From contig PAQS01000001.1 in NCBI GenBank assembly GCA_002709385.1, positions 1-39,495 on the forward strand: a stretch of DNA of 39,495 nucleotides. The letters are read 5' to 3'. The stretch is from Waddliaceae bacterium (GTDB taxonomy: Bacteria > Chlamydiota > Chlamydiia > Chlamydiales > GCA-2709385). The number at the start of each line of letters is the position of its first letter. Position 1 is the stretch's first letter. The notes under the pieces were generated by a model. That model searched no databases. It worked only from the letters and a program-made list of their open reading frames with translations, and was not told the origin of the DNA. Below, piece by piece: positions 1 to 32,034 of the stretch. The position numbers were made by a program, and so were the translations under genes.

Positions 1-63
1 GCAAACAAAGCAAACAAAGCAAACAAAGCAAACAAAGCAAACAAAGCAAACAAAGCAAACAAA
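1..63. repeat. 9-bp tandem repeat, 7 copies, running in from upstream
   Basis: Seven perfect copies of GCAAACAAA run from the first base of the window, so the array is probably longer upstream. The unit is three codons long. Read from base 1 it encodes Ala-Asn-Lys repeats, and this frame stays open to a TAG at 112-114. It could therefore be the C-terminus of a repeat protein ending outside the repeat, or simply a non-coding variable-number repeat. Nothing in the window decides between these. Confidence 0.85.
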
Positions 64-199
64 GTAGACACAGTCCCCCATTCATATCTTGGGAAATTTT
101 TGTTTCGCACATAGCGCACATGATATGCGTAAAACTCGTGTATAAATATAAATTCCACAAAATATGAAAAGAACAAAACCGATTAAAAGATTAATCGCC

Positions 200-1264
200 T
201 TATCCACCACCACCTCTACGGAATTGAGCAAAATCTTCTAAAGAAAATTCCGGTAACTCTGCGGTCTCTCGATTAGTTCGAATAAGATAATGCCTTGCAA
301 ACTCAGCGAAAGGATAGTCTCCACAAGACAAGTGCTGGGACCTCATTGGAACATCTTCAGCACCTAAAGATACTTCTACATCTAGAATATCTCCCTTAGG
401 ACATCGTACATCATTTTTAATCTCATCCCAGGAAATCGATATATCGGAATAAGTCACCCAAATACACTTTCCTGGAGCAAGAGAAATATCCGCTTTTCCA
501 TATAGTTCACCATCATACTTTGTAAACATCGAGTCTAATCCTGAAGGCATCTTCCATGACTGAAAATGTTGATTTTTACTTGTCACACTAATGTATGGAA
601 ATCTTGCTGATCCTCGGCCTGTGTTTCTTATGCCTAATACAACCTGTACTGAAATGCTACGTCCATGTGTCCAACTTCCTCTTTTAATTTTTGCACAAAT
701 TTCCAGTTGAGGATGTGGGCGTTTACCAAATCGATCAGCTATCTCATAATGCTCCATTTTAACAGTAGATTCACCAGAGCGCTTGTAATACCCCTTGACC
801 TTATCGTTTTGCATATTCATCACAGGATCGCCGTCATACTCCGGAACATATACCACCATTACCCCCTGAGTATCATCTTCAGGATCTTTCACAGAGAGGA
901 ACTCTAGCTTTAAATCCGAAGGAGCGAACCAACCATAAACATTTTCACGGAAGTATGAAATATAGCTGTCTACTTTAGGTATTGGAATAATTTCAGAAGC
1001 TCCATCTACCTGACTTTCTTCTGAGGTAGCAATTCCAAATACCAAAACCCCACCCGCAGAATTTGCAAATCCTGAAACCTGTTCACAAAATAATTCTCGA
1101 TCTTTTTTGATTGGTTTTCCTTTGGAGTTGAAATGTTCAATATCTGATTGCTTAAATTCAAGGTAGAGATTTTCTTCTTGTCTTTGCTCTACCCATTTTT
1201 TCAATGTTTCCCACTTTTCTTTCTGTAGCTGTATATAGTAACTTTCTGGTGCATTAACGCTCAT
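200..1264 (-). CDS. Schlafen/AlbA_2-type putative DNA-binding protein
   Basis: 354-aa protein. Residues about 30-175 resemble the AlbA_2 (Schlafen AlbA) domain: an acidic/aromatic entry E36-F-K, then the core V-S-G-F-A-N-S-A-G-G at 63-72 followed by a hydrophobic strand, and a later Y-Y-K-R-S-G segment. The C-terminal half is beta-rich and not recognised. I chose ATG at 1264 because a good Shine-Dalgarno (AGAGGA) precedes it; a longer reading to 1429 would run through the repeat cluster that controls parA and is unlikely. The family occurs in transcription regulators and in defence or nucleic-acid-processing proteins, so the function is uncertain. It is divergent from parA and shares a 182-bp control region with it. 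Confidence 0.75.
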   Translation of the reverse strand: MSVNAPESYYIQLQKEKWETLKKWVEQRQEENLYLEFKQSDIEHFNSKGKPIKKDRELFCEQVSGFANSAGGVLVFGIATSEESQVDGASEIIPIPKVDSYISYFRENVYGWFAPSDLKLEFLSVKDPEDDTQGVMVVYVPEYDGDPVMNMQNDKVKGYYKRSGESTVKMEHYEIADRFGKRPHPQLEICAKIKRGSWTHGRSISVQVVLGIRNTGRGSARFPYISVTSKNQHFQSWKMPSGLDSMFTKYDGELYGKADISLAPGKCIWVTYSDISISWDEIKNDVRCPKGDILDVEVSLGAEDVPMRSQHLSCGDYPFAEFARHYLIRTNRETAELPEFSLEDFAQFRRGGGG

Positions 1265-1353
1265 ATCGTTTCCTCTCGACCTCAAATCATTTAGCAATAC
1301 TGCAACTAATTTAGATTTAATTAGACTACACACCTTCCTTTGTTTAAACAATT

Positions 1354-1425
1354 TATGCCGTATGGCTAATACAGCTCGTATGGCATAGTTGTCAAATATG
1401 GCGCGTATGGCTAATATGGCAGTAT
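1354..1425. promoter_or_regulatory. Heptad cluster (TATGGCT/TATGGCR) between AlbA_2 gene and parA
   Basis: Repeated TATGGC cores, mostly as GTATGGCTAATA or GTATGGC, are spaced closely across about 70 bp and overlap the parA promoter. The same heptads, in both orientations, recur in six further places between 4.1 and 10.1 kb. Arrays of short heptads are the classic binding substrate of RHH partition proteins such as omega and ParG. The likely binder here is the RHH protein encoded just after parA, making this an operator and possibly a centromere. That assignment is inference. Confidence 0.6.
1389..1417 (+). promoter_or_regulatory. Promoter of the parA operon
   Basis: A TTGTCA -35 box at 1389-1394 and a TAATAT -10 box at 1412-1417 are separated by exactly 17 bp. 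The -10 box lies within one of the TATGGCT heptads (GGCTAATATGGC), so a protein bound to the heptads would block RNA polymerase. ParA starts 29 bp downstream, after AGGAGAG. Confidence 0.6.
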
Positions 1426-1446
1426 ACACCTTGTTAGGAGAGAGAG

Positions 1447-2223
1447 ATGCCTGATTCTAAACAAAAGGCTATTGTGGTTTGTTTTAGCAACCACAAGGGA
1501 GGAGTAGGTAAAACCTGCTCAACATGTAATATCGGTGCGGGTATGGCCCGTCAGGGAAAAAAAGTTCTCTTAGTAGATTTAGACCCACAAGCTAACTTAT
1601 CTTTAAGTCTCGGCGTCAGAGACCCCTCACGGTCTATTTATGATGTCCTTATGGGTGAAATGGAAATTTCTAGCACCATTATTTGCGTGAATGAAAACTT
1701 AGATATTATTCCTTCTTCGTTAGATTTAGCTGGAGCGGAAATCGAACTCGCTGCAGAAGCAGGAAGAGAAATGATACTGAGAGAAGCTTTAGAGCCTCTT
1801 TTAAAAAAGTATGACTATATTTTAATTGACTGCGCTCCTACTTTAGGACTTCTCACAACAAACGCTTTGACTGCTGCAGAAGAAGTGTACATCCCTCTCC
1901 AAGCTCAATACTTGTCACTCCAAGGTATAACCAAACTTACCGGAGTTCTAGATAAAATTAAGTCTAGGCTAAACAAGACTCTCAATTTGGGTGGAGTTTT
2001 TCTCACACAGTATGATGGAAGAAAAGTTCTAAATCGTGATATTGCAGATGCCATCCAAGAACACTTTGATTCTTTAGTATTTAAAACAAAGATTAGAGAT
2101 AACATCTCACTAGCGGAAGCTCCTAGTATGGGACAAGATATCTTTCGATATAACTCTAAAAGTAATGGCGCAAAAGACTACGAAGCATTGTGTAGCGAAA
2201 TTCTAACGAAACTAGAGAAATAG
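1447..2223 (+). CDS. parA: ParA partition ATPase
   Basis: 258-aa deviant-Walker ATPase that segregates the replicon. The Walker A motif K-G-G-V-G-K-T is at residues 17-23, with the signature lysine in the deviant position. Walker A' is V-D-L-D-P-Q-A at 43-49 and Walker B is I-L-I-D-C-A-P around 125-131, with D128. It lacks the long N-terminal helix-turn-helix of F/P1-type ParA, so it is the small (type Ib or chromosomal-like) form, whose partner rather than ParA itself represses the operon. The start has a strong AGGAGAG site. The RHH gene follows after 12 bp, and both are probably cotranscribed from the promoter at 1389-1417. Confidence 0.93.
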   Translation: MPDSKQKAIVVCFSNHKGGVGKTCSTCNIGAGMARQGKKVLLVDLDPQANLSLSLGVRDPSRSIYDVLMGEMEISSTIICVNENLDIIPSSLDLAGAEIELAAEAGREMILREALEPLLKKYDYILIDCAPTLGLLTTNALTAAEEVYIPLQAQYLSLQGITKLTGVLDKIKSRLNKTLNLGGVFLTQYDGRKVLNRDIADAIQEHFDSLVFKTKIRDNISLAEAPSMGQDIFRYNSKSNGAKDYEALCSEILTKLEK

Positions 2224-2235
2224 GAATCACTAACT

Positions 2236-2574
2236 ATGGTAAAAAAGAAATTTTCTCAAGGCATCAATGCAATACTCGGAGGAGCAACAACTCCTACCGC
2301 GACTGTAGAAGAAACTCCTCAAGATCTACCTCCACCCCCTCAAAAACCTGCGTCAAAACCAATTTTGGAAACAAAAGTAGCGACGAAAAAAGTTGATTCT
2401 CCTCAAACAAAAGTTACCTTAAGAATCGATTCAGCACTTTTAGACACTGTTAAGGCTGTAGCATATTGGGAAAGAAAAACGATGACCGAAGTTTTCTCTG
2501 AAGCTCTACGTGCTCATTTACAGATCCTCGGAGAGGAATACATTGAAAGTGCAATTTCAGCTCATAAACAGTAA
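2236..2574 (+). CDS. RHH centromere-binding protein (ParB/ParG analogue)
   Basis: 112 aa. Residues 59-98 form a ribbon-helix-helix: a short strand V-T-L-R-I-D, then helix A (S-A-L-L-D-T-V-K-A-V-A), a turn, and helix B (T-M-T-E-V-F-S-E-A-L-R-A-H-L). The first 16 residues (K-K-K-F-S-Q-G-I-N-A-I-L-G-G) closely resemble the N-terminal ParA-activating peptide of ParB proteins (basic, then G-L/I-x-A-L/I-L-G). The middle (20-55) is Pro/Thr-rich and looks like a flexible linker. Seen together, this suggests a ParA-stimulating arm on an RHH DNA-binding core. It probably binds the TATGGCT heptads and represses parA. Position and domain are clear; the DNA target is inferred. Confidence 0.75.
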   Translation: MVKKKFSQGINAILGGATTPTATVEETPQDLPPPPQKPASKPILETKVATKKVDSPQTKVTLRIDSALLDTVKAVAYWERKTMTEVFSEALRAHLQILGEEYIESAISAHKQ

Positions 2575-2591
2575 TTAAATAGCTTATTCAT

Positions 2592-4112
2592 ATGGCCTCA
2601 CATACTCTTGAAAAAACAACGCAGTTAACCCTACACTCAGTGCGCAACATGCTCGGAGATAAAGGACAAACAGAACTTTTCGAGAATCATGACAAAGAAT
2701 TCTCAGAGCATTTTGGAATTGCTTTAAGCGGTAGAATCGAGCGGTTTGGAATAGACCTTTCAGATACCGAATCGAGAATGATCGAAGCTATTTTACATGG
2801 GTTTACTCTTACATCTTATAAAGGAAACCTTGAGTCCAAACCCAAAGAAGAAATATTACAAGAGTCCTATGAGGGAAAACAGCCTCCTACTTTCAAGTAT
2901 ATAGAGCAACTACCACGACTCAGAGCTACTCAATCTGACATATTAGAGTGGGCTGGTATCAATAAAAACAGTATAGCAGCGAAAGTTAGGGCTCTTGAAG
3001 CTCTAACAACACTAGGACGCAAACAATACTGCTTTTTCTACGACAGGCTTGCATTTGATGAGAATCGAATGCCTATGCAAGATCGACATGGAAAATGGAA
3101 AAAAGAAGAAGTGATTGCTGTAGATACCCTGTTTACCATCAAGGAAGTACGTGATCAGGGAAAGGGAGCTCTTCAATACTATGAAATTATCCCAAGTCCC
3201 TTATTTCTAGACCAGAGAGACTCTTATTTTCTCCTCGTACCGAATAACTGGCGTGAAGAGGTACGAACTCTATATGGAAATAAAAAAGCTTCCAGCTATA
3301 CGTTTCGTCTCCTGATGTTCTTGCGGTACCAATATGAAGTAAAAAGGCGAAGTACAAACATCTCCCCTCCCTACGAAATTCGCTGGTCTCCAAAAGAAAT
3401 TGCTACTGCTATTAATATGCCTTCAAGTGTTGTCGAACGCAATCGCAATCGGATGAACACTCTTCTTGAAGATGCTTATGAAGTATCTATTCGATTGGGC
3501 TACTTGAATAGTTATGAGCGCTTAGGCCACCTAGATATTCTCCGTCTACGGGATGACAAATACTATGGATCTGTTAATTCCGTTTTTAACACCTGCGTAC
3601 AGCAACAAAAACCTACAGAAAAACAACATAGCAAAGAAGCTGAAGAACTATTTTCTAAACTCCATGAAAATAAGAAAAAAATAGACCCCAAACACACTCC
3701 TCCCGATGGAAAAGATAAAGAATCTGAAGTATCCACTTTTGATGTGCTCCTCTCAGCTAGGTCCTTTAATGAGATTGCAACATTGATGGACTGGGGATTC
3801 AGTAAAAAGTTTTGGTGCACACGTGTCTCAACTCCCCAAAAAATCCTCAAGAACTTTTCTGATGCATGGATTGAGATGTCTCTAGAAAACTCTCCTGTTT
3901 CTCAAGAAGACAATAAATCCTGGGTCTCTAAAATTCTACAGGACTGTGTGATTTCAAATATTCAAACCAAAGTTGAGGCTCTCAACAATTACCTTGAAAT
4001 CGTCACAGGCCCCCATCAGCCAGTGTGTATCGAATACAACGACAAAGATTTTAAAGAAAAAGTTTTAAAAACATTTAAGCGATACAAGATTTCAATCCCC
4101 TCAAAAATTTAG
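2592..4112 (+). CDS. Probable plasmid replication initiator
   Basis: 506 aa, third gene of the par block. No family is recognised with certainty. The central region (about 190-320) reads like a Rep_3-type winged-helix initiator: an 'L-F-L-D-Q' and 'Y-F-L-L-V-P' strand region, then Y-T-F-R-L-L-M-F-L-R-Y-Q helix, then W-S-P-K-E-I-A-T-A-I-N-M-P, which looks like a recognition-helix segment. The last 150 residues are lysine-rich and less ordered. The setting supports the call: it follows ParA and RHH, and a regular 5-copy iteron array lies about 1 kb downstream. There is no clear Shine-Dalgarno before ATG 2592. It could instead be another plasmid-borne DNA-binding protein. Confidence 0.55.
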   Translation: MASHTLEKTTQLTLHSVRNMLGDKGQTELFENHDKEFSEHFGIALSGRIERFGIDLSDTESRMIEAILHGFTLTSYKGNLESKPKEEILQESYEGKQPPTFKYIEQLPRLRATQSDILEWAGINKNSIAAKVRALEALTTLGRKQYCFFYDRLAFDENRMPMQDRHGKWKKEEVIAVDTLFTIKEVRDQGKGALQYYEIIPSPLFLDQRDSYFLLVPNNWREEVRTLYGNKKASSYTFRLLMFLRYQYEVKRRSTNISPPYEIRWSPKEIATAINMPSSVVERNRNRMNTLLEDAYEVSIRLGYLNSYERLGHLDILRLRDDKYYGSVNSVFNTCVQQQKPTEKQHSKEAEELFSKLHENKKKIDPKHTPPDGKDKESEVSTFDVLLSARSFNEIATLMDWGFSKKFWCTRVSTPQKILKNFSDAWIEMSLENSPVSQEDNKSWVSKILQDCVISNIQTKVEALNNYLEIVTGPHQPVCIEYNDKDFKEKVLKTFKRYKISIPSKI

Positions 4113-4133
4113 GCTTTAAGCAACAAGTCCCCT

Positions 4134-4372
4134 TGCCATACTTGACATACCTGCCATATCAGCCATACATCTGAGGATATTGCAGAACAAGTAGAGCAAG
4201 GATCTTGGATTGCTCCAATTCTAAAATCCCTCAATCAATTACAGGATCCTAAACACTCATCGTTTCTAAAAAATGCAACAAAATGTGACTGGGTGACATA
4301 TTAGCCATACCTGACATATTAGACATACTATATTAATGAGCCATACTAGCCATATCGGACATACCATATGGC
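4134..4372. repeat. Two heptad clusters with one iteron (non-coding)
   Basis: Inverted AGCCATA/GACATA heptads occur at 4134-4170 and 4294-4372, with one full iteron TGCAACAAAATGTGACTGG at 4274-4292 leading directly into the second cluster. This iteron-then-heptads order is the same as at 5368 and 9049. Between the clusters (about 4172-4308) a frame without an obvious start (beginning E-D-I-A-E-Q-V-E-Q-G-S-W) reads like a fragment of protein sequence and ends at a TAG inside the repeat. It may be a gene relic. Confidence 0.65.
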
Positions 4373-4607
4373 AAAAACCACTGAACCCACTAAATATTTG
4401 CACTATGAAGATACAAACCCCACGACCCTCTTATTAACTATGCAACAAAATGTGACTGGAAAACACACTAGCCATTTCGTATGTATGAACCATAGTATAT
4501 GGCTTATACAGCCCGTATGGCGCGTATGGCTACTGCTTATTTTTATGAATTCCAAAACTTTAGAAGAACTGGAATCCTCAATAAGAGAACGTCGAAATCC
4601 GGCTTGA
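4368..4607 (+). CDS. Small hypothetical ORF built partly on repeat DNA
   Basis: 79-codon frame. Residues 9-31 (K-Y-L-H-Y-E-D-T ... L-L-L-T-M-Q-Q-N-V-T-G) match a 24-codon frame just after the 1033-aa gene (8997-9071), and the M-Q-Q-N-V-T-G part is simply the iteron read in one frame. The middle is heptad repeat DNA in translation. Only the last 20 residues look unlike repeat. There is no good ribosome site. It may be a chance frame through repeats, or the end of a mobilised gene fragment, so I hold it at low confidence. Confidence 0.25.
   Translation: MAKTTEPTKYLHYEDTNPTTLLLTMQQNVTGKHTSHFVCMNHSIWLIQPVWRVWLLLIFMNSKTLEELESSIRERRNPA
4441..4536. repeat. Iteron followed by heptad cluster
   Basis: A complete 19-bp iteron at 4441-4459 is followed by ACTAGCCAT, TATGGCT, CGTATGGC and CGTATGGCTA heptads to 4536. 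It is a diverged member of the composite unit seen best at 5368 and 9049. Confidence 0.6.
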
Positions 4608-4619
4608 ATTTTTTTAACG

Positions 4620-5126
4620 ATTTGAGAGCCTCACAAGGTCCTTTTCTCTAGACTATTCTTTTGGGAGTTCAATCCCAGACAAGATGCATAAATGGGTTCT
4701 ACGCCTAAAATTTTTTACTGCGACTAAATAACGAGTCATGTCATTCCTGAAAATAAGAGTGAAATCCTTAAAAGCATTTTAATGGGGTTTGCTTGCGTTA
4801 AATCTGCTTAAGATATGTGAAGGTACCTCTAAAACCGATTTAAACGAACTCAGAGGAAGTATGATGTGTTCTCATTGCTGTGGAACATCCTGAAGAACCC
4901 CGAAACTTTCAGGCTCTTCACTAGCGTGAACTCTTGCTTAGGCTTTTGAGCTTTGCCAAGAAGCGCTAGAAGGACTTGTCTCAAGGCTTTTCTGTAAAGG
5001 GATCGAAAAGCAAAAAATTTTGAAAAATGAAAAATATAGAGTTCTACAAAAAGTAGGGGAGTTTTCTTCTTCTTTTTTCTTTAATTATTATATATATTAT
5101 AGGACCTCGATTTTCCCTCCTAGATC
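4620..5126. other. Gene-free stretch, possible rep-like relic
   Basis: No intact gene is visible. Short stop-interrupted pieces resemble parts of the replication initiator at 2592: around 4761 the frame reads S-E-I-L-K-S-I-L-M-G-F, compared with R-M-I-E-A-I-L-H-G-F in the intact protein, and from 4837 another frame gives D-L-N-E-L-R and later A-L-E-G-L-V-S-R-L-F-C-K. If real, this is a decayed second copy of rep beside the origin. The similarity is weak and judged by eye. At 5040-5100 the DNA becomes T-rich and then A/T-only before the iteron array. Confidence 0.25.
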
Positions 5127-5228
5127 TGCAACAAAATGTGACTGGTTTTGCAACAAAATGTGACTGGATCTGCAACAAATTGTGACTGATTGCAACAGAA
5201 TGTGACTGATTGCAACAGAATGTGACTG
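5127..5228 (+). repeat. Iteron array, probable replication origin
   Basis: Five direct copies of TGCAACAAAATGTGACTGG or close variants start at 5127, 5149, 5171, 5191 and 5211. The spacing of 22, 22, 20 and 20 bp is about two helical turns, so the sites face one side of the DNA, as in Rep-binding iterons. The last three copies are degenerate (AAATTG, then twice CAGAATG). An A+T-only stretch flanks them at about 5082-5100. Four single copies lie elsewhere (4274, 4441, 5368, 9049). Origin function is inferred from the geometry and the nearby initiator gene. Confidence 0.7.
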
Positions 5229-5247
5229 AAAGCCAGCTCTTATGCTT

Positions 5248-5283
5248 TGTATGTATGGTATGGCTAGTATGGCTAGTATGGCT
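5248..5283. repeat. Heptad cluster next to the iteron array
   Basis: Overlapping direct copies of TATGGCTAG (GTATGTATGGTATGGCTAG, then AGTATGGCTAG) follow the last iteron by 20 bp. They are the same heptads as in the parA promoter, which puts a probable partition site right beside the probable origin. Confidence 0.6.
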
Positions 5284-5367
5284 TTTTTATATCTATATGA
5301 TTTGGGTAGATAAGTACTAAACACCAATGAAATAAAAATTCTTTTATTGAGAATAGATTCGGAAAAA

Positions 5368-5480
5368 TGCAACAAAATGTGACTGGGTGACATACTAGCC
5401 ATACCATACATATAGGTAATACTATGTGGCTAGTATGGCTAGTATGGCTGATTACTAAAATAAGCTCTTAATTTGATTGG
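5368..5480. repeat. Composite unit A: iteron plus heptads
   Basis: An iteron at 5368-5386 runs straight into GACATACTAGCCATACC, a GGTAATACTAT core, then TATGGCTAG copies and TGATTACTAAAA, ending with TAAGCTCTTAATTTGA. The order and most bases are shared with unit B (9049-9195) and unit C (9971-10113). Inverted heptads sit left of the GGTAATACTAT core and direct ones right of it, so the unit is a large imperfect palindrome. Confidence 0.7.
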
Positions 5481-5889
5481 AACTCTTACGAAGGACAAAG
5501 ATCGCATAGTTTTTCTATCTTCTCATTTTTTGAGAGGCTAGACCTTTCCATATGAATATTTCCATTAAGACGGTTTTACCGTCAAAGAGTCAAGGTGGTA
5601 TACTATGTAATTGTCTATATGCTTGATTATTAGTGTGTTTGATTGTTAATCGATTTAATTGAATTGCCATTAAGATGGTTTTTCCATTAAGACGGATTTT
5701 TTTGAATTAAAATATTCTTACAACCCTGAAATTAATGATTATATTTCTAATATTATATCATAATAAAAACTTTTTTATTTATAGTTAATTTTTACGGCTG
5801 TGGTGTAAAAAATTAATCGTTAAAAAAGGTTTTATAGTAAAATAATAAAAAAGTTTTTGATTATAATTTTTATATAATTTTTATCTGAT
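5481..5889. other. AT-rich leader of the 1033-aa gene with short repeats
   Basis: No gene is seen. Three copies of CCATTAAGAYGG lie at 5562-5573, 5667-5678 and 5684-5695. The first overlaps a perfect palindrome GACGGT-TTT-ACCGTC (5569-5583). From 5700 to 5889 the sequence is very A/T rich, with several possible -10 boxes (TATAAT-like) close to the ATG at 5890, but no matching -35 stands out and there is no Shine-Dalgarno. The repeats are candidates for operators of the downstream gene. Confidence 0.45.
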
Positions 5890-8800
5890 ATGACTAAAGT
5901 TGTCTATTCCACTTCTCAGCTCCTTGAAGAGCTCAAAAATCAGTCGATGGATGTGCGTGTTGAATCAGTCAAGGTCCATTGGCCAGAAAGTGTTTCTGTT
6001 TGTTCAGATGCAATACACGGCAAGTTAGAACGAATAGTTCGTATCAATGAACAAGTAAACTTATTGTTAAGTAACGGTAAAGAGATTTTATGGGAACGGG
6101 AAGTGATATTCCAAGGAGAAATTGGTCAAAATGACGAAGATCTTGCTGCTAGAGCTTGGCTTAGTACCCATGACCAGGAAAATGAAGTATCGCACCGTTT
6201 GAAAGAACTAAGTAATCGTATTCTCAAAACACCTTCAGACGTAAAAACGGAAAAAAAAATTATTGAGTTGGGGAATTTAGAAACTCAGAAAAAAACTTCA
6301 ATTTTGCCCGAATGGGTTTTGAATCTTTTTTACAAAAGTCCCTTTTTGTATAGAAGTGTTCAAGAAACAGCTCTAAAAAAAATAATACCCTCTAAGTGTT
6401 TAAAAGACTGGGGGGCAAACGATCTCTTAGTGGCATCCCAGGAAATAGGTTCTATAAATAAAAAAAACTCCACATTGAGTTCTCAAGAGAGTTTGCACAT
6501 AGATCGGATTTTGAATCATTTGATTGAAATATCCGTATCTTTATTGGCCGATTATGATTCTTCGATTCCTTATGAGTTTTTGTATCAACCGAATTTTTTA
6601 CTTTATTATGGGAATCAAATTCTTAAAGTTGCGCAAGAAAATGGCTCTATTCAAAATGGAATAAGCTTGAACTCTCCAGATTTGGTCGAGATTTTTCAAC
6701 GAAGGTTATCCAATAGAATACTAATAAGAGATGGTGGAAGAAAAAATCTTTTTGAAAGTAGTAGGTCGCAACAATTAAGCGAAGAACTAATATCCTCTTT
6801 TAAGGTTTTAGAGAAAACTGGGCGAATTCCTGACCCGGATTCTGATTATATGAAATGGAAACACGTTTTAGCGGGTAACTTAGATGCGATAAGCCAAAGT
6901 GCCATTGAAAACTTGGAAGAACTTAGAGGATATTGTTTAGACACCTTTTTTTCTACACAAGATATTTGGCAGTCTATATTTGATGGAGAAGACATCAGCA
7001 CATCACAGTTCGAAGAACTAACTATTGGTTTTTATAAAATCTGGAAAGAAAAAGTAAAAAATACAAATTCGCTAATAAAAAATGAGATAAAGAATTGTAA
7101 TATTTTAATATCTACTGAACTTCCAGGTTTCAGTAAAATGAGCTCTACAGATCCACTACAAGAAATCATTCAAAAAGAGGTTAATGACTTATTAAACGCT
7201 AGAGCTTCCTTTGACTTTCGACAATTCTTCACAATGTCTCTCTCTCCGGAGAAAGAAAAAATATGGGAGAGCTTCTTTGTTCTTTTATTAGAGAATTTGT
7301 GGAAAAGAGGCCCTGAAATAGAGTTGAATGGTGCCATTTCTAATGACGATATCAGTATGTATACGGATCAATATGCAGAGGCCAGAGATTGGATTGACAC
7401 TCTTAGTCAATACAGTGGGAAAAATCAGGAATTCTTTGATCGATTAAATAAGATGGTTCAAATCAACGAGCCTGAAATTGGTGAAGAAGTCTATCGATCA
7501 GCCAACCGAAAGCAGATTCAGTGGGAATGCAAAGGTATCTTCTCCAACGAAGAAGCTGAAGCATTGTATCTTCTATCTCTTTCTTTATCGGATAGCTCTG
7601 AAATCCTCAATAAATCAGAGTTGGAAAGTATACGTATTTTCATTGACGAACTATGTATAGATAATTCGGATTTAAATAAACGCGTCGCTGCAATTCTGAA
7701 TGAAGAGGATGGAGTAAATTTTCTAGGCATCAGCGAGGAAGCATTGCATTTGTGCAGAGCTTTAACCTTTAAATCATCATATTTTAAATATGTTGAAGGA
7801 ATTACATCCAGATTGGAAAACATTGATCGCTTGTTATCCGAAAATAAACCAGCAGAACCTGAAGAAAGAATTAGACACGAAGACCTCCATATTATTAATT
7901 CTTTGAGGGGGCTTTTTTTCTATCGCAGGTACTCCAGTGATTTAGCACCAGTGGAAAAATTAGCTGATTGTGGTTTGAAGTGCTTTCCTGAACTACTTCA
8001 AATTCGAGAAAATTTGCTTACTTGTACAAATGTCATTGACCAGTTGGCTTTTTCTTTAGAAAATGAATCGAAACAAACATTTCGAAACGGTGATTTCTTT
8101 GCTGATAGTTCAATAAATAAACTGATAAAAAAGAAAGATCACGAACTCCCACTTACATCCCTTACTGAAAGCCTAACTCAGCGATACGGTCATACAGGAA
8201 TTATTGTAAATAGAATAGATCAGGATAGATTATCATCTGGTGAGGTTTGCGTTACTTATACGGAAGATCTTCTGGTATTGCCATTCGGTCTTGCTGGATC
8301 TGACTATTTTCGACTTGTTCCCAGTGAACTTATAAAAAAGAAACCTCATCGAGAGATTCTTTCAAAAGTATTCTCTAATGAATCCTGGGAAAAACAGCTT
8401 CAAAGTAGGTACGAAGAAATTATCGAATGGTCCCAATCAGGGGATAATATTCAGGCGCAAGAAGCAATTCGAAACGTTAAACTAGGATTGCAAAAAACAT
8501 GGTTTCTTCACAAGTTACAAAGTTGTAAGGATAAATTGCTTTTCTGGAGAAGGAAGTCTTGGTCAAGAGCTCGAAGAGAAGCTGTTTACCATAAAATTTT
8601 TGATGAGAACAAATCTAATGAGGTGCATATGTATTGCAGTTCTCATTCACTACAGGTATCGCTGAGCGCTCTTCACATACTTAATCAAGAGGTTGCAGAA
8701 AAATATCTCTCTCTACTTCAAGACGAGGGAAAAAAGGAAGAAGCTAAAAAATTTGAAAAAGAGTATGTACTGGGTGATAAGATGCTCATTCAAATGCCGG

Positions 8801-8991
8801 TAAAGTACAGTAAATACATAGATAACGTTCCTCCAGACAGCATGCTGAAAAGATTAAAAAATTCTGGTGCCTTACAAAAACTTCCACGTCTGGATGTTCA
8901 GGAAAGGTATATCGCTCCTCCTCCTAAAAGAAAAGACCTCTTGTTAGATAGAGTCAAAAAGACGCTTAAGAATACCTTTTCAAAAACCTAA
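5890..8991 (+). CDS. Orphan 1033-aa protein, no recognised domain
   Basis: I do not recognise a family. The frame is long, continuous and has normal amino-acid use, so it is certainly a gene. It looks soluble and mostly alpha-helical, with many Leu/Glu/Lys/Ser-rich segments, no signal peptide and no membrane segment. No Walker, nuclease, protease or methylase motif is visible. Residues 1-80 may be a small beta-domain (alternating V-x-V patterns). A separate beta-type segment is around 775-810 (T-G-I-I-V-N-R ... L-V-L-P-F-G-L-A-G). A basic, tryptophan-bearing helix follows near 880-900 (L-L-F-W-R-R-K-S-W-S-R-A-R-R-E), and the tail is Lys/Pro-rich. It stands alone between composite repeat units A and B, in AT-rich DNA. 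A chlamydia-specific effector, a large structural protein or a defence protein are all open; none can be argued from motifs. Confidence 0.85.
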   Translation: MTKVVYSTSQLLEELKNQSMDVRVESVKVHWPESVSVCSDAIHGKLERIVRINEQVNLLLSNGKEILWEREVIFQGEIGQNDEDLAARAWLSTHDQENEVSHRLKELSNRILKTPSDVKTEKKIIELGNLETQKKTSILPEWVLNLFYKSPFLYRSVQETALKKIIPSKCLKDWGANDLLVASQEIGSINKKNSTLSSQESLHIDRILNHLIEISVSLLADYDSSIPYEFLYQPNFLLYYGNQILKVAQENGSIQNGISLNSPDLVEIFQRRLSNRILIRDGGRKNLFESSRSQQLSEELISSFKVLEKTGRIPDPDSDYMKWKHVLAGNLDAISQSAIENLEELRGYCLDTFFSTQDIWQSIFDGEDISTSQFEELTIGFYKIWKEKVKNTNSLIKNEIKNCNILISTELPGFSKMSSTDPLQEIIQKEVNDLLNARASFDFRQFFTMSLSPEKEKIWESFFVLLLENLWKRGPEIELNGAISNDDISMYTDQYAEARDWIDTLSQYSGKNQEFFDRLNKMVQINEPEIGEEVYRSANRKQIQWECKGIFSNEEAEALYLLSLSLSDSSEILNKSELESIRIFIDELCIDNSDLNKRVAAILNEEDGVNFLGISEEALHLCRALTFKSSYFKYVEGITSRLENIDRLLSENKPAEPEERIRHEDLHIINSLRGLFFYRRYSSDLAPVEKLADCGLKCFPELLQIRENLLTCTNVIDQLAFSLENESKQTFRNGDFFADSSINKLIKKKDHELPLTSLTESLTQRYGHTGIIVNRIDQDRLSSGEVCVTYTEDLLVLPFGLAGSDYFRLVPSELIKKKPHREILSKVFSNESWEKQLQSRYEEIIEWSQSGDNIQAQEAIRNVKLGLQKTWFLHKLQSCKDKLLFWRRKSWSRARREAVYHKIFDENKSNEVHMYCSSHSLQVSLSALHILNQEVAEKYLSLLQDEGKKEEAKKFEKEYVLGDKMLIQMPVKYSKYIDNVPPDSMLKRLKNSGALQKLPRLDVQERYIAPPPKRKDLLLDRVKKTLKNTFSKT

Positions 8992-8996
8992 AATAT

Positions 8997-9071
8997 ATGA
9001 AATATCTGCACTATAAAGAAACATCCTCCATAGATCTCTTATTAAATATGCAACAAAATGTGACTGGTTGA
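8997..9071 (+). CDS. 24-codon frame matching the start of the 4368 ORF
   Basis: Directly behind the 1033-aa gene, M-K-Y-L-H-Y-K-E-T-S-S-I-D-L-L-L-N then M-Q-Q-N-V-T-G and a stop. It is homologous at DNA level to 4392-4460. There is no ribosome site of its own. It is better viewed as an extension of the repeat unit than as a proven peptide; it is listed because two diverged copies keep the same frame. Confidence 0.2.
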   Translation: MKYLHYKETSSIDLLLNMQQNVTG

Positions 9072-9195
9072 CATACTAGCCATACCTTACATACAGGTAA
9101 TACTATATGGCTAATATGGTTGATGTGGCTAGTATGGCTGATTACTAAAACAAGCTCTTAATTTGAGCTGAATCGTAACTGTAGCTCTTTTTGGT
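9049..9195. repeat. Composite unit B: iteron, heptads and RHH-gene 3' end
   Basis: Iteron at 9049-9067, then the same inverted/direct heptad block as units A and C. From 9071 it parallels unit C (from 9971) at exactly 900 bp distance with few changes. Its right end (about 9150-9195) copies the last ten or so codons of the minus-strand RHH gene at 10076 (K-E-L-Q-L-R-F-S-S-N-stop), so B is a truncated duplicate of the region now at C. The GAGCT...AGCTC-TTTTT arrangement at 9164-9191 could also act as a weak terminator. Confidence 0.75.
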
Positions 9196-9243
9196 TTAAT
9201 TATTTAATTTAAGAAAGTGAAGTAGACCCAAATAATAATATGC

Positions 9244-9867
9244 CTATTTTTCGAGGCGAGGTTTTATATTCACTAAAGCATCTTCTGAGCTCCAGAATCC
9301 CCCTGAAACTTTTAAGTAATATTTACGGCCAAAAGGAACATCAAACAGTATTATACCTTCTTGGCTTACGTTTGGGTTAAGAGCATCTAATGCATGAATT
9401 GAATTATCAATACGCCATCCGGCACTTGATGAAGAGTACTGATTTCCAGAATCATCAATTAGATAAAAAGGGGGGATAGTTCGTTCTTGACTATCGTTAT
9501 TTCTAACGGTAAGACGAATGAATAAATATTTGCCGTTTGGAGGAGTATCTAAACTATCGCCTCTTATAGAACTAGAATACCATGAATCCCATACTGCATA
9601 AGATGTATATCCAACAGTTACGGTTTCTTGTTGAGAAAACTGTTTAATAGTCTTGGGAGAAGTATTGGATTGAGAGTCAACCTTCATAACAAAATATAAT
9701 ATAATACCTAAAACTAGAACAGTCTTAAATAGACCAGATAATGTGCTAGATAAATTTAAATAAACTTTTTTTAAAAAACTTTTTTCATCAATTTTTATCC
9801 CACAATTAGGACATTTATCAGCTTTTGAGCTGATTTTTGATCCGCACTCTTTGCATTTTACTAACAT
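9244..9867 (-). CDS. Zinc-ribbon, membrane-anchored DUF4352 protein
   Basis: 207 aa. Residues 4-22 hold a zinc ribbon with C-x2-C (5, 8) and C-x2-C (19, 22), typical of zinc_ribbon_2. One membrane segment follows at about 41-63. The remaining 140 residues are beta-rich with the DUF4352 pattern (...K-Y-L-F-I-R-L-T-V-R-N-N-D..., L-I-D-D-S-G-N-Q-Y, then I-L-F-D-V-P), an immunoglobulin-like extracytoplasmic domain. The ribbon would be cytosolic and the DUF4352 part outside. Such proteins are common in Firmicutes and rare in Gram-negatives. It lies alone between repeat units B and C, hence probably a mobile single-gene cassette. Function unknown. Confidence 0.8.
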   Translation of the reverse strand: MLVKCKECGSKISSKADKCPNCGIKIDEKSFLKKVYLNLSSTLSGLFKTVLVLGIILYFVMKVDSQSNTSPKTIKQFSQQETVTVGYTSYAVWDSWYSSSIRGDSLDTPPNGKYLFIRLTVRNNDSQERTIPPFYLIDDSGNQYSSSSAGWRIDNSIHALDALNPNVSQEGIILFDVPFGRKYYLKVSGGFWSSEDALVNIKPRLEK

Positions 9868-9970
9868 AGCAACTCATTTAGTTTTTCTAATTTATTTAAC
9901 TAATTAAGTATAACTGTTTTTTTGTAAAAAATAAAATATTTAACAGGTGTATTCTAATGATGTTATTATC

Positions 9971-10113
9971 ACATACTAGCCATACCTTACATATAGGTAA
10001 TACTATGTGGCTAATATGGTTGATGTGGCAAGTATGGCTGGTATGGCTGGTGTGGCTGATTACTAAAACAAGCTCTTAATTTGAGCTGAATCGTGACTGT
10101 AGCTCTTTTTGAT
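9971..10113. repeat. Composite unit C: heptads plus 3' end of the RHH gene
   Basis: It carries the same block as A and B but lacks the iteron (it begins TATCACATACTAGCC). It has one more TATGGCTGG heptad than B. Its right end is the genuine 3' end of the RHH gene (stop at 10076-10078). It lies about 100 bp before the start of the zinc-ribbon gene on the minus strand, so the heptads may control that gene. Confidence 0.7.
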
Positions 10114-10483
10114 TGGATATTTCTTCCTCAATGAGTTTTTCAAAAATAGCAGACATGATCCAACGTCGAGTAGAAAAAGTATAATTTTTCGTTTTTAGTT
10201 CTTCGATTTTTTTATCTAATAGCTCTTTAATTTCCTGAGAAAGATCTACTTTGATAGTGCGCATTTTAAATTCTCCGTCGGGATCATTTTTCTCACTATC
10301 ACGTTTAAGCTTTTCCTCTATAGCTTCTTGCATCCATCCAGAAACCGAAACATCTTCTTTTTCGAGTAGTTTTCTGACAGATCTTATTTTGCTAATTCTG
10401 TCTGCTGTTGCTCGATCAATAGTCATCGCATACTGGTATATGGAGTCTTTTTGACATCGTTTTTCGTCTTCATCGTTTGTCAT
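10076..10483 (-). CDS. Double RHH protein, TraY-like relaxosome or tra regulator
   Basis: 135 aa. ATG at 10483 follows an excellent AGGAGG site, so a longer reading toward 10972 through the traA promoter region is rejected. Two RHH-like halves are visible: residues about 20-58 (A-T-A-D-R-I-S-K-I-R ... V-S-G-W-M-Q-E-A-I-E-E-K-L) and about 70-120 (T-I-K-V-D-L-S-Q-E-I-K-E-L-L-D ... R-W-I-M-S-A-I-F-E-K-L). F-plasmid TraY is also a 131-aa tandem RHH protein, which binds oriT and the tra promoter just ahead of traA. Here the gene is divergent from traA, 244 bp away. The tandem fold and position are seen; TraY function is inferred. Confidence 0.65.
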   Translation of the reverse strand: MTNDEDEKRCQKDSIYQYAMTIDRATADRISKIRSVRKLLEKEDVSVSGWMQEAIEEKLKRDSEKNDPDGEFKMRTIKVDLSQEIKELLDKKIEELKTKNYTFSTRRWIMSAIFEKLIEEEISNQKELQSRFSSN

Positions 10484-10727
10484 TATACCTCCTCGATTCG
10501 CCGGAATATAAAAGCATAGATTTATGAAAAAATCAATCTGAAACACATACAGATTAGATAAAAATACACTTAAAAGTGGTTCTGAAAGGGTTTTTTCATT
10601 GTTTTCTTTCGTCTCTAAAGTAACAAAAAAATAATTTCGAGAATAGGCAAGAAAAAACTTCAGTTTATAAAATATGTTGTATAAATTATGGAATAAGCGG
10701 TAAAGCTTAAAGTTAAAGGAGAATTTA
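10484..10727. promoter_or_regulatory. Divergent control region between RHH gene and tra operon
   Basis: No gene. AT-rich. It holds an inverted repeat CACTT-AA-AAGTG near 10568-10579 and a TATAAA at 10680-10685 that could be the -10 of the tra promoter, without a convincing -35. A strong AAAGGAG precedes traA. The RHH protein would be expected to bind here. An oriT could be here or outside the window; I see no nic motif I can name. Confidence 0.45.
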
Positions 10728-11042
10728 ATGAAAACATCGATGATCACCGGTGCTATGTTAGCGGCAATGGCTTTTGCACCTTCATTAATCATGGCTAGTA
10801 CTGGAGAGGATTTTGGATTTACTGCGGAAGCTACGAAAATCCAAGATTTCTTATTCGGTCCTGTAGTACGTATTGCAGGGATTGCCGGGGGAGCGTATGG
10901 ACTGATGCAGTCTATTACAACCTCGAGTGTATCTCCGTTAATGATGTACGGAGCAATTGGTGTTGGTGCCAACTTAGTTCCGAAGTTTATTAATGGCGTA
11001 TTCGACGTATCAGGAATGCTAGTTACTGCAATCGGGGGCTAG
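10728..11042 (+). CDS. traA: TraA-like pilin precursor
   Basis: 104 aa, first gene of the transfer operon. The signal peptide (K3, hydrophobic 5-20) ends around I-M-A at 21-23. The mature part has two hydrophobic segments rich in Gly and Ala (about 46-62 and 71-85) separated by a short loop, the layout of F-type pilins. The size (about 80 residues mature) also fits. No separate TraQ- or TraX-type processing gene is seen nearby. Ribosome site AAAGGAG. Identity rests on topology and on position directly before traL. Confidence 0.75.
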   Translation: MKTSMITGAMLAAMAFAPSLIMASTGEDFGFTAEATKIQDFLFGPVVRIAGIAGGAYGLMQSITTSSVSPLMMYGAIGVGANLVPKFINGVFDVSGMLVTAIGG

Positions 11043-11046
11043 TACG

Positions 11047-11346
11047 ATGAGGCAACATGATGAAAGTAGAATCATCAAAACTCTCGACAATCAACCTAGA
11101 GTTCTTTTTTGGGATGTAGATGAATTCCTTGTTCTTTTTCTTCCTCTTCTTTTGGGGATTGGAATAGGGAGTATTCTCATCATGTTGCTTGGTATTCCTC
11201 TAAAGTTTGTTTTCTCAAAGACAAAATCGAAAAGAGGTGTTCCGTTAAAACACCGAATGTACTGGATGCTTCCTTCTGATTTTCTACGAAAAAGAAAAGG
11301 AATTCATAATTTTCCTGACTCTCATATTCGGGATATTGTTCTATGA
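11047..11346 (+). CDS. traL: TraL, pilus assembly membrane protein
   Basis: 99 aa. It has the family's N-terminal signature: ...L-D-N-Q-P-R-V-L-F-W-D-V-D-E-F, followed by one long hydrophobic segment (about 28-55). TraL sits in the inner membrane with TraE and is needed for F-pilus assembly. It follows traA by 4 bp, and its stop overlaps the traE start (ATGA). Confidence 0.85.
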   Translation: MRQHDESRIIKTLDNQPRVLFWDVDEFLVLFLPLLLGIGIGSILIMLLGIPLKFVFSKTKSKRGVPLKHRMYWMLPSDFLRKRKGIHNFPDSHIRDIVL

Positions 11347-11897
11347 ATGAACTAATGATGGAAAGAGATTTAAATAATCTCAGGAAGCAGAGAAACGCAC
11401 TTACTGCTATTTGTACAGTGTTATCTCTTTCTGTAATTTTACAGGGAGTTTTCCTTTTTAAGAAGCAAGATCGAGTTGTTATTGTTCCTCCTGTCGTTAA
11501 CCAGTCGTTTTGGGTAGATAATCAACATATTTCCGTTTCTTATCTTGAACAGATGGGAGTTTTCCTTGGGGAACTACTTCTTTCTAAATCGTATCATTCT
11601 TCTCTTAAGCAAAGAGAAATTCTCTTAAAACATGCCAGCCCAGGTTTTGCAACGAGTTTTAGAAAAAAACTCCTAGAAGAAGAAGCAAAATTAAAGAATC
11701 AAAATTCATCCTATGTTTTTCATCCAGAGTCGGTAAGAGTCAATCAAAATAAGAGACTCGTTTTATTAGAAGGGAATAGAGAGGTGTATGTAAATGGAAA
11801 GCGTATCTCAACACAAAAAGAGACATATGTTTTGCATTTTAGTTACTTAGGAGGACGCCTTCTACTCGATGGGGTGAGTCAGGGAGAAAACAAATGA
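11343..11897 (+). CDS. traE: TraE, VirB5/8-like T4SS inner-membrane protein
   Basis: 184 aa, close to F TraE (188). N-terminal cytosolic basic segment, one membrane helix (about 20-42), then a periplasmic domain with the TraE pattern V-V-I-V-P-P-V-V-N-Q-S-F-W-V and the ending ...Y-V-L-H-F-S-Y-L-G-G-R-L. It overlaps both neighbours by 4 bp (ATGA), so translation is coupled. Confidence 0.9.
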   Translation: MNELMMERDLNNLRKQRNALTAICTVLSLSVILQGVFLFKKQDRVVIVPPVVNQSFWVDNQHISVSYLEQMGVFLGELLLSKSYHSSLKQREILLKHASPGFATSFRKKLLEEEAKLKNQNSSYVFHPESVRVNQNKRLVLLEGNREVYVNGKRISTQKETYVLHFSYLGGRLLLDGVSQGENK

Positions 11898-12583
11898 TCC
11901 GATATATTTTTCTAGCTTTATCTTTGCTTACTTCTAGCCAGCTTTTTTCGACATTGATTCATGAGATTGATACTTGTAAGGCTTTGAATTGTTCATTCAG
12001 CATTAAGCAGCATAATCGAATTATCGTGGATGGAGGGCTTGTAAAAAAGCTTATCTGTCCTGAAGGGGTTTTTAATTTTCGTTTAGATGCTGATAGTGGA
12101 CAAGCCTTTGTATTGGTGGAGAATATTAGTAATGAACCAACTTTAATTTCTGTAATTACAGATGAAGGAAGAGTTCAAGACTTGTCTGTCACTTTAGAAA
12201 ATAAACCATCTGAAGTGATTGTTCTTAAAAGTTCTAATTCTGAAGAGCAAGCCCCATCTGTATTAGAAGAAGACGTCGATCATGAGATGGTATCTATATT
12301 ACTGAGCTTAATGGATGGAACAATTCCGGAAGGGTATAGCCCTAGAGAAGTGAGTTCATCTGATGATCGTTCGCAGAGAAGTTTTCGCTTAAAAGCTAAA
12401 ATCTGTGTAGAGGGACCTTATGAAAAGATCTATGCTTATGAGCTGGTTAATCTTTTAAATGTTGATCTCCATATATCAGAAGAAAGTATTTCGAATACTT
12501 CAGATCTCTGGATCTATCTTGAAAGCAACAAAATTCCTCCTCGAAAGTCAAGTAGAGTGATTATTTCTAGGAGGAAAAATTAA
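11894..12583 (+). CDS. traK: TraK, outer-membrane-complex secretin-like protein (VirB9 analogue)
   Basis: 229 aa with a signal peptide (about 1-19) and a beta-rich periplasmic body. Similarity to TraK is weak but recognisable in the C-terminal region (V-E-G-P-Y-E-K-I-Y-A-Y-E-L-V-N-L ending W-I-Y-L-E-S...P-R-K-S-S-R-V-I-I). TraK, TraB and TraV build the core channel across the envelope. The place between traE and traB is canonical. ATGA overlap upstream, TAATG downstream. Confidence 0.8.
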   Translation: MIRYIFLALSLLTSSQLFSTLIHEIDTCKALNCSFSIKQHNRIIVDGGLVKKLICPEGVFNFRLDADSGQAFVLVENISNEPTLISVITDEGRVQDLSVTLENKPSEVIVLKSSNSEEQAPSVLEEDVDHEMVSILLSLMDGTIPEGYSPREVSSSDDRSQRSFRLKAKICVEGPYEKIYAYELVNLLNVDLHISEESISNTSDLWIYLESNKIPPRKSSRVIISRRKN

Positions 12584-31481: not shown

Positions 31482-32034
31482 GCCTGAAGTGAGCTTGTCA
31501 CCGACAGAGGACCTTTGTTTGAGGTTCTTAGCTTTAAAAGATGCTCCTATTCTTTTTGCTCTTGTCGATCAGAACCGCGAGCACTTGAGAGAGTTTTTGG
31601 GATGGCTTGATCACAATCAGTCCGTTGAAGATACCGAAGTCTTTATTCGCCGCGAACGCGAGCGGCTAGAGAAGAAAGAGGCTCTTACTCTGGCAATTGT
31701 TTTCAAAGAGCAGATTGTTGGATTGGTCGGGTTTCACAATATCGATGGACTAAACCGTTCTGCTTCGGTTGGTTACTGGTTAGATAAGAATCACGAAGGC
31801 CAAGGTATTATGCGGCAATCAGTCAATGCTTTGATTGACCACGGCTTTTCCACACTGAGCTTACATCGAATCGAAATACAGTGCGCTGTTGAGAACCTTC
31901 GAAGCCAGCGCATTCCCCTTGCTTTTAGCTTCAAACAGGAAGGAATTCTTCGAGAGTCGATCTGGCATTATGGAGATTTCTTTGACGCCATCGTTTATAG
32001 CAAGCTTGCTGACGAGTGGGAGGGGGGTGAATGA
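31474..32034 (+). CDS. RimL-like GNAT acetyltransferase
   Basis: 186 aa. Pattern of the RimL/YdaF ribosomal-protein-serine acetyltransferase group: L-C-L-R-F-L-A-L-K-D-A, L-G-W-L-D-H, then V-G-Y-W-L-D-K-N-H-E-G-Q-G-I-M (acetyl-CoA loop, with G-I in place of the usual G-I/L-M), and L-H-R-I-E-I-Q-C-A-V-E-N-L-R-S. The substrate may be an amine on a peptide or a drug. It starts inside the previous gene and overlaps the next by 4 bp. Confidence 0.85.
   Translation: MNEPEVSLSPTEDLCLRFLALKDAPILFALVDQNREHLREFLGWLDHNQSVEDTEVFIRRERERLEKKEALTLAIVFKEQIVGLVGFHNIDGLNRSASVGYWLDKNHEGQGIMRQSVNALIDHGFSTLSLHRIEIQCAVENLRSQRIPLAFSFKQEGILRESIWHYGDFFDAIVYSKLADEWEGGE

Follow-up and report, generated by a model that had tools for sequence, protein, structure and literature searches.

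A putative iteron origin of replication beside a long Pgp2-family gene on a chlamydial contig

What is the function of a regular array of short direct repeats that lies about 1.0 kb downstream of an initiator-like gene, on a contig from the order containing Chlamydia? The stretch of DNA analysed here (the window) comprises the opening 39,495 bp of the 60,581-bp contig C1, part of a 3.15-Mb genome, and its features are collected in Table 1. A preliminary description of the window had proposed a vegetative origin, and that reading is supported by homology of the nearby gene product to the chlamydial plasmid protein Pgp2, by the co-occurrence of repeat and protein across the phylum, and by a switch in skew. 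With a probability of about 0.9, the array is regarded as the putative origin of vegetative replication in a chlamydial plasmid replicon of the Pgp2 type.

A sequence scan confirmed five copies, starting at 5127, 5149, 5171, 5191 and 5211, and thus the spacing of 22, 22, 20 and 20 bp described previously. The repeats do form a direct array, and the unit, previously given as 19 bp, is shorter: the portion common to all five copies is 18 bp. Copies 1 and 2 are exactly TGCAACAAAATGTGACTG, and copies 3, 4 and 5 are each one base off, a drift that had been correctly noted. The graded initiator affinity that had been read into this drift was dropped as unsupported. The drifting bases (A/G at position 8 and A/T at position 10) are those that vary naturally among relatives, the G/T form being the commonest in one of them (G090). 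Since copies 3–5 differ at the R and W positions of the core, drift need not mean lower affinity.

Four isolated exact copies, overlooked in the earlier description, sit in intergenic blocks, and all nine copies are on the plus strand. Allowing up to three mismatches, the window has nine matches against 0.06 expected; the maximum in shuffled sequence was one, and 0 of 100 shuffles reached nine. The remainder of the 3.15-Mb genome has only two matches, both with two mismatches. A block of about 120–150 bp with GTATGGC-type sites occurs three times between cargo genes (5350–5500, 9030–9190 and 9950–10115); two of the three copies begin with an iteron, and the block may be a recombination or regulatory cassette. 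Adjoining the putative origin, a 1033-aa protein (5890–8991) has no Pfam, NCBIfam or PADLOC match. Further along the window, at 33275–34520, two neighbouring genes correspond to PDC-M04A/B, a candidate defence pair in PADLOC (5.2e-94 and 1.1e-56).

Table 1. Features of the putative origin region, in window coordinates.
Feature	Position	Strand	Evidence
GTATGGC-type sites immediately before parA; candidate operator/parS	1360..1411	+	sequence scan
ParA-family ATPase (Pgp5-like)	1447..2223	+	PF13614 2.5e-58
Weakly RHH/PrgO-like protein of 112 aa; candidate partner of ParA that binds the centromere	2236..2574	+	PrgO 4.5e-4 (below curated cut-off); RHH_1 0.038
506-aa long Pgp2-family protein, proposed iteron-binding initiator	2592..4112	+	homology to Pgp2
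C-terminal DnaD/O-like domain, proposed helicase-loading; best matched at about residues 340–440	3582..4109	+	phrog_2514 2.1e-5
GTATGGC-type sites, minus orientation, around the isolated iteron at 4274	4132..4363		sequence scan
Isolated exact iteron, then GTATGGC-type sites	4274..4291	+	sequence scan
Isolated exact iteron	4441..4458	+	sequence scan
AT-only tract, about 25 bp ahead of the array; candidate DNA unwinding element	5080..5101		sequence
Iteron array, TGCAACA[AG]A[AT]TGTGACTG x5	5127..5228	+	direct repeats in sequence; core kept in relatives
GTATGGCTA x2.9, 9-bp period, candidate RHH/partition sites by the array	5258..5283	+	tandem-repeat scan
Isolated exact iteron, then GTATGGC-type sites	5368..5385	+	sequence scan
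Convergent GTATGGC-type sites by the isolated iteron at 5368	5391..5449		sequence scan
Second AT-rich stretch (85% AT), alternative candidate unwinding region	5700..5889		base composition
Isolated exact iteron within a repeated intergenic block, 3.7 kb beyond the preceding copy	9049..9066	+	sequence scan

The gene upstream of the array was rightly singled out as initiator-like: its product is a divergent homologue of chlamydial Pgp2, and it co-occurs with the repeat. The 506-aa protein matches Pgp2 of a Chlamydiifrater plasmid by tblastn at 3e-14 (26% identity, residues 34–311), and the window protein is recovered in turn when the canonical-type protein encoded on C1 serves as query (E 1.0e-9). 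For Pgp2 of C. trachomatis, a role as initiator of plasmid replication was published only in 2025, on the grounds of a predicted structure and a single deletion: the fold is reported to resemble those of R6K pi, RepE and RctB (DALI Z above 10), and transformation was lost without an 11-residue beta-hairpin (residues 108–118), reported as essential (PMC11895440). Matches to the window protein were found in 26 of 232 Chlamydiota genomes. Nine of these carry the long Pgp2 (the window genome and eight others at 43–53% identity), sixteen others carry a Chlamydiaceae-type Pgp2 with 25–31% identity to the window protein, and one (G066, locus L050) matches the C-terminus only and was not counted as Pgp2. 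When the canonical-type protein was the query, 34 of 232 genomes had a match, a third, short group among them.

The whole 506-aa protein matches no Pfam or NCBIfam family, and Pfam scans of its two halves (one of them the N-terminal 330 residues) gave nothing at E up to 5. A PDB sequence search gave nothing meaningful, with one match at E 2.2; close DNA relatives among PLSDB plasmids, relatives in viral contigs and RNA families in the window were sought and none was found. The full-length structural model is weak (mean pLDDT 51, pTM 0.32, built from two sequences). The best Foldseek match of this low-confidence model, RepE54, is not significant (E 0.04, probability 0.80). By VIA-align it gives Z 8.9 with RepE (2z9o, residues 50–328) and 8.6 with pi (2nra, residues 102–324), at an rmsd of 12–17 Å, and unrelated winged-helix proteins score equally high.

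The repeat core TGCRACARAWTGTGA, with up to two mismatches, was sought in the nine long-Pgp2 loci, including the first 12 kb of the window. At each of the nine, at least three core sites share a strand and lie no further than about 2.2 kb from the gene, the core being kept beside homologous genes in eight other genomes. The window has nine sites (one further off), and the other loci have 7 (L043), 8 (L044), 17 (L045), 9 (L046, plus one stray on the other strand), 15 (L047), 3 (L048), 4 (L049) and 19 (L051; this and L009 appear to be the same record and were counted once). The reversed-sequence control gave no core sites in each of the 13 stretches examined. Across whole genomes, the exact core occurs at least three times in 7 of 232, all seven of which carry the long Pgp2, while the remaining two long-Pgp2 genomes (G160 and G193) have diverged cores. 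None of the 223 genomes lacking the long Pgp2 has three exact cores (the highest count is two, in G228), and the reversed exact pattern is absent from 232 of 232. The linkage of Pgp2 family and repeat across the phylum provides independent comparative evidence for an initiator role of Pgp2.

In G228 the two long-type cores (C1:108262 and 108283) are separated by 21 bp and lie close to a third-group Pgp2 gene, on a contig of 132,038 bp; they are perhaps a relic or the site of a second initiator. At L049 (G098:C1:1704–1706 kb), in a 2.44-Mb single contig, a broken long-Pgp2 gene is left with four iterons, probably a decaying chromosomal insertion.

Other branches of the family have their own repeats. 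Canonical replicons carry 22-bp units, such as TATGCAACTCTAGGTGGTAGAC in L013, and third-group units include TGCTACACATATACCGGTGATT (L090). A tandem repeat of 18–24 bp was found in 10 of 13 short-type loci, two of them short or weak (L083, L089), and none of that size in L084, L085 and L087. Chlamydiaceae plasmid pieces (L023–L038 and L053–L068) were left out of the array and neighbour counts because most of these stretches end short of the place of the repeat in L013 and L092; a tandem-repeat scan of L023, L053, L054, L055, L058, L061 and L066 gave none of 18–24 bp.

The AT-only tract reported beside the array is real, and AT content is 80% across 5020–5101. No exact DnaA box (TTWTNCACA) is present near the array, at 4–6 kb, where every match has one mismatch; within 1–12000 exact boxes occur only at 689 and 7298, among 40 matches in all when one mismatch is included. 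GC skew had been suggested as a check, and the origin reading survived it. The cumulative skew over the 60,581 bp of C1 is lowest at 4747 and highest at 36095, values that describe an open contig and not the full replicon, because the far end of C1 lies inside an IS copy that is also present at L010:735. Skew at codon position 3 was used to separate the replication signal from gene direction. It is −0.20, +0.04 and −0.18 in plus-strand genes before the array, and +0.07 to +0.28 in nine sampled plus-strand genes from 5890 to 31481, a switch across the array within genes of the same strand. The minus-strand gene at 200–1264 gives −0.26 when read on the plus strand. One sampled plus-strand gene at 32031–33278 (−0.24) counts against a clean switch, and values are mixed in five minus-strand genes beyond 34 kb. 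The start of C1 (window 1–64) consists of GCAAACAAA x7.1, probably an assembly break point.

A second complete plasmid module lies at C1:41098–47971 (L010:1699–8572). It encodes an RHH-like protein, ParA, an integrase, DnaB and a canonical-type Pgp2 of 581 aa, together with a further gene that we take to be PDDEXK-like, and carries a 22-bp x4 array at C1:47884–47971, on the same plan as the canonical replicons. ParA, the RHH-like protein, a Pgp2-family protein and a 22-bp array are shared with the window module, whereas DnaB, the integrase, the beta-hairpin and GTAGAC-type iterons are particular to the second. The presence of two modules suggests that C1 is a composite or cointegrate replicon. 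Because the second module is complete and has its own array, the five-copy array might not be the origin in use; it could be a Pgp2-binding control (inc-like) or relic site, with the working origin in the second module. The array there is the more regular (98% matches), its DnaB and Pgp2 genes are in tandem as in Chlamydia plasmids, and relics of the long-Pgp2 system do exist, as in G098. However, the cumulative skew reaches its minimum by the first array rather than at 47.9 kb, the Pgp2 gene of the first module is intact, and it shares an operon with parA and the RHH-like gene in an order found in three other genomes. A control or relic site is considered unlikely, and the five-copy array is retained as the putative origin.

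The three genomes with the same gene order (ParA, small protein, long Pgp2) are represented by L043, L044 and L048, in which parA homologues 70%, 67% and 56% identical are found in the same operon. The partition-type heptads described beside the array are present, as GTATGGC cores every 9 bp, and 21 of the 22 GTATGGC sequences of the window fall within 1360–10041. Exact runs of GTATGGCTA do not exceed 2.9 copies; at 10005–10060 there is also a degenerate run, 18 bp x3.1 with 76% matches, equivalent to about six units of 9 bp. The ParA and weakly RHH-like genes by the putative origin, flanked by GTATGGC-type sites, fit a candidate partition role. The RHH-type ParB of pSM19035 is reported to stimulate ParA fully only with four or more contiguous 7-bp sites (PMC9499535), and competition for iterons by an RHH antitoxin is reported from a different plasmid (PMC7848731). 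As the GTATGGC sites are 9 bp apart and adjoin iterons, either partition or iteron competition is possible.

These neighbours, together with the F-type T4SS genes that follow within the window, are what would be expected if the 20–22-bp repeats were themselves a partition centromere or conjugation-region sites (oriT or relaxosome). Such a role is extremely improbable: the core tracks the Pgp2-like gene, both in L044 and L048 (fetched stretches without tra homologues) and in L045 and L046 (with tra genes), and the look of a partition site belongs to the 9-bp GTATGGC repeats rather than to the longer ones. Transcription control (autoregulation or silencing) by repeats acting as operators, in place of an origin, is somewhat less remote, although still very unlikely. 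It would account for the isolated copies in intergenic blocks, the interspersed operator-like GTATGGC-type sites, and one core copy in L046 about 26 bp upstream of the pgp2-like gene, as expected of an autorepressor site, but the five-copy array is about 1 kb downstream of the operon, away from its promoter, and the skew switches there. Iteron initiators commonly serve both replication and transcription control, so that operator function would complement, not replace, the role of the array as an origin.

Beyond about residue 330, the window protein matches families of DnaD-like helicase loaders and O-like phage proteins. The C-terminal domain scanned alone gives the phrog_2514 match listed in Table 1, and phrog_2514 is matched by five of eight family members, at values up to 0.01 and of 2.5e-6 at best. 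In G066, a 347-aa protein is matched by the window C-terminus at 2.7e-7 and itself matches phrog_2514 at 1e-26. Related C-terminal stretches occur in 9 of 232 genomes; the domain is found in eight of the nine long-Pgp2 genomes, the one exception being G169 (the long Pgp2 of L048). The C-terminal model is of good quality over no more than about residues 340–430, and a PDB fold search with it returned nothing at E ≤0.001 (best VIA Z 2.7), solved DnaD structures not being among the matches listed. As the fold searches gave no clear match, the predicted DnaD/O-like relationship is drawn from sequence alone.

Long- and short-type loci also differ in their neighbours. A helicase gene is present in the fetched stretch of one of nine long-type loci (L047, DnaB) against 13 of 13 short-type loci (Fisher 2.8e-5, kinship and contig size ignored; L044, L048 and L084 are short contigs). 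The short-type helicases comprise ten DnaB matches and three AAA_25 matches (L082–L084) that overlap the start of the pgp2-like gene; the DnaB match of L086 spans only about 110 codons. No DnaB match was found in the 39.5-kb window, the nearest being at C1:45331–46092, inside the other module. A long Pgp2 that usually has no helicase neighbour and appears to carry its own DnaD/O-like domain is new relative to the papers searched.

In an alignment of 17 Pgp2-family proteins, only three canonical members (P0001, P0002 and L092) have the beta-hairpin insert, and the repeats of these three carry GTAGAC. Six long-type and eight third-group proteins are without the insert (the window protein shows a 9-column gap), and GTAGAC is absent from all repeat units listed for long-type and third-group loci. 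As the hairpin occurs in this alignment only with GTAGAC repeats, it may read the GTAGAC half of the iteron; this correlation, of three against fourteen related proteins, suggests that the left half, TGC.AC, may be read by a part common to the family. A long Pgp2 predicted to be without the hairpin reported as essential in Chlamydia Pgp2 is likewise new relative to the papers searched. Within the parts of the open-licence literature covered by the search, the long Pgp2, its repeats and the link between hairpin and iteron are not described.

Two designs may be envisaged: a short Pgp2 working with a plasmid-encoded hexameric helicase, and a long Pgp2 with a fused phage-type DnaD/O-like loader that recruits host DnaB. 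Independently, the hairpin would be specific to GTAGAC replicons, reading the GTAGAC half-site, and would not be needed for iteron binding generally. Taken jointly these proposals are tentative, at a little below even odds; the loader and the half-site reading are both hypotheses, backed by comparative evidence. Two questions become open to direct tests: which iteron half the beta-hairpin reads, and whether a DnaD/O-like tail takes the place of a plasmid helicase.

In the mechanism proposed for the five-copy array, the 506-aa long Pgp2 would bind the repeats through two winged-helix domains, oligomerise on the in-phase array and open the AT-only tract just upstream, after which its DnaD/O-like C-terminal domain would deliver DnaB helicase. 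The four isolated copies on the same strand would probably take up or pair with the initiator and so restrain copy number. The GTATGGC-type sites around the origin and ahead of parA would be the targets of ParA and the small RHH-like protein, through which these two would segregate the plasmid and keep the operon repressed. An origin and initiator pair from a chlamydia outside the Chlamydiaceae could help to build vectors for environmental chlamydiae.

Overall, there is a strong case that the array is an iteron origin of a Pgp2-family replicon, and that the long Pgp2, itself little studied, is related to Pgp2, the initiator of chlamydial plasmids. The Chlamydiaceae plasmid replicon is described as having Pgp2 with 22-bp x4 iterons (PMC11895440, PMC7259575); the evolution of these plasmids is treated in PMC7846284 and iteron diversity in PMC7259575. 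Shared with that replicon are homology of the initiator, direct repeats of about 22 bp in tandem with TGCAAC in their left half, and a ParA gene on the element. The window module differs in that its initiator has an additional, predicted DnaD/O-like C-terminal domain and is without the 11-residue beta-hairpin, and in that the right half of its iteron is TGTGACTG and not GTAGAC. It also has no Pgp1 DnaB, and the RHH-like protein stands in place of Pgp6, for which there was no match in the window at E 1e-5.

Replicons of the Rep_3 or two-winged-helix type (F RepE, R6K pi, pPS10 RepA) likewise have direct iterons by an AT-rich tract, and by its low-confidence model the window protein may resemble their initiators in fold. 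Unlike them, the window protein has no Pfam match in its N-terminal 330 residues (E up to 5) and carries the extra loader-like C-terminal domain, and its array is without an exact DnaA box. A further parallel is the staphylococcal RepA_N initiator pSK41 Rep, a plasmid initiator reported to be related to DnaD and suggested to assist helicase loading (PMC5703833). There, the whole protein is described as DnaD-like by structure, whereas in the long Pgp2 an added C-terminal stretch is similar in sequence to DnaD/O-like phage proteins.
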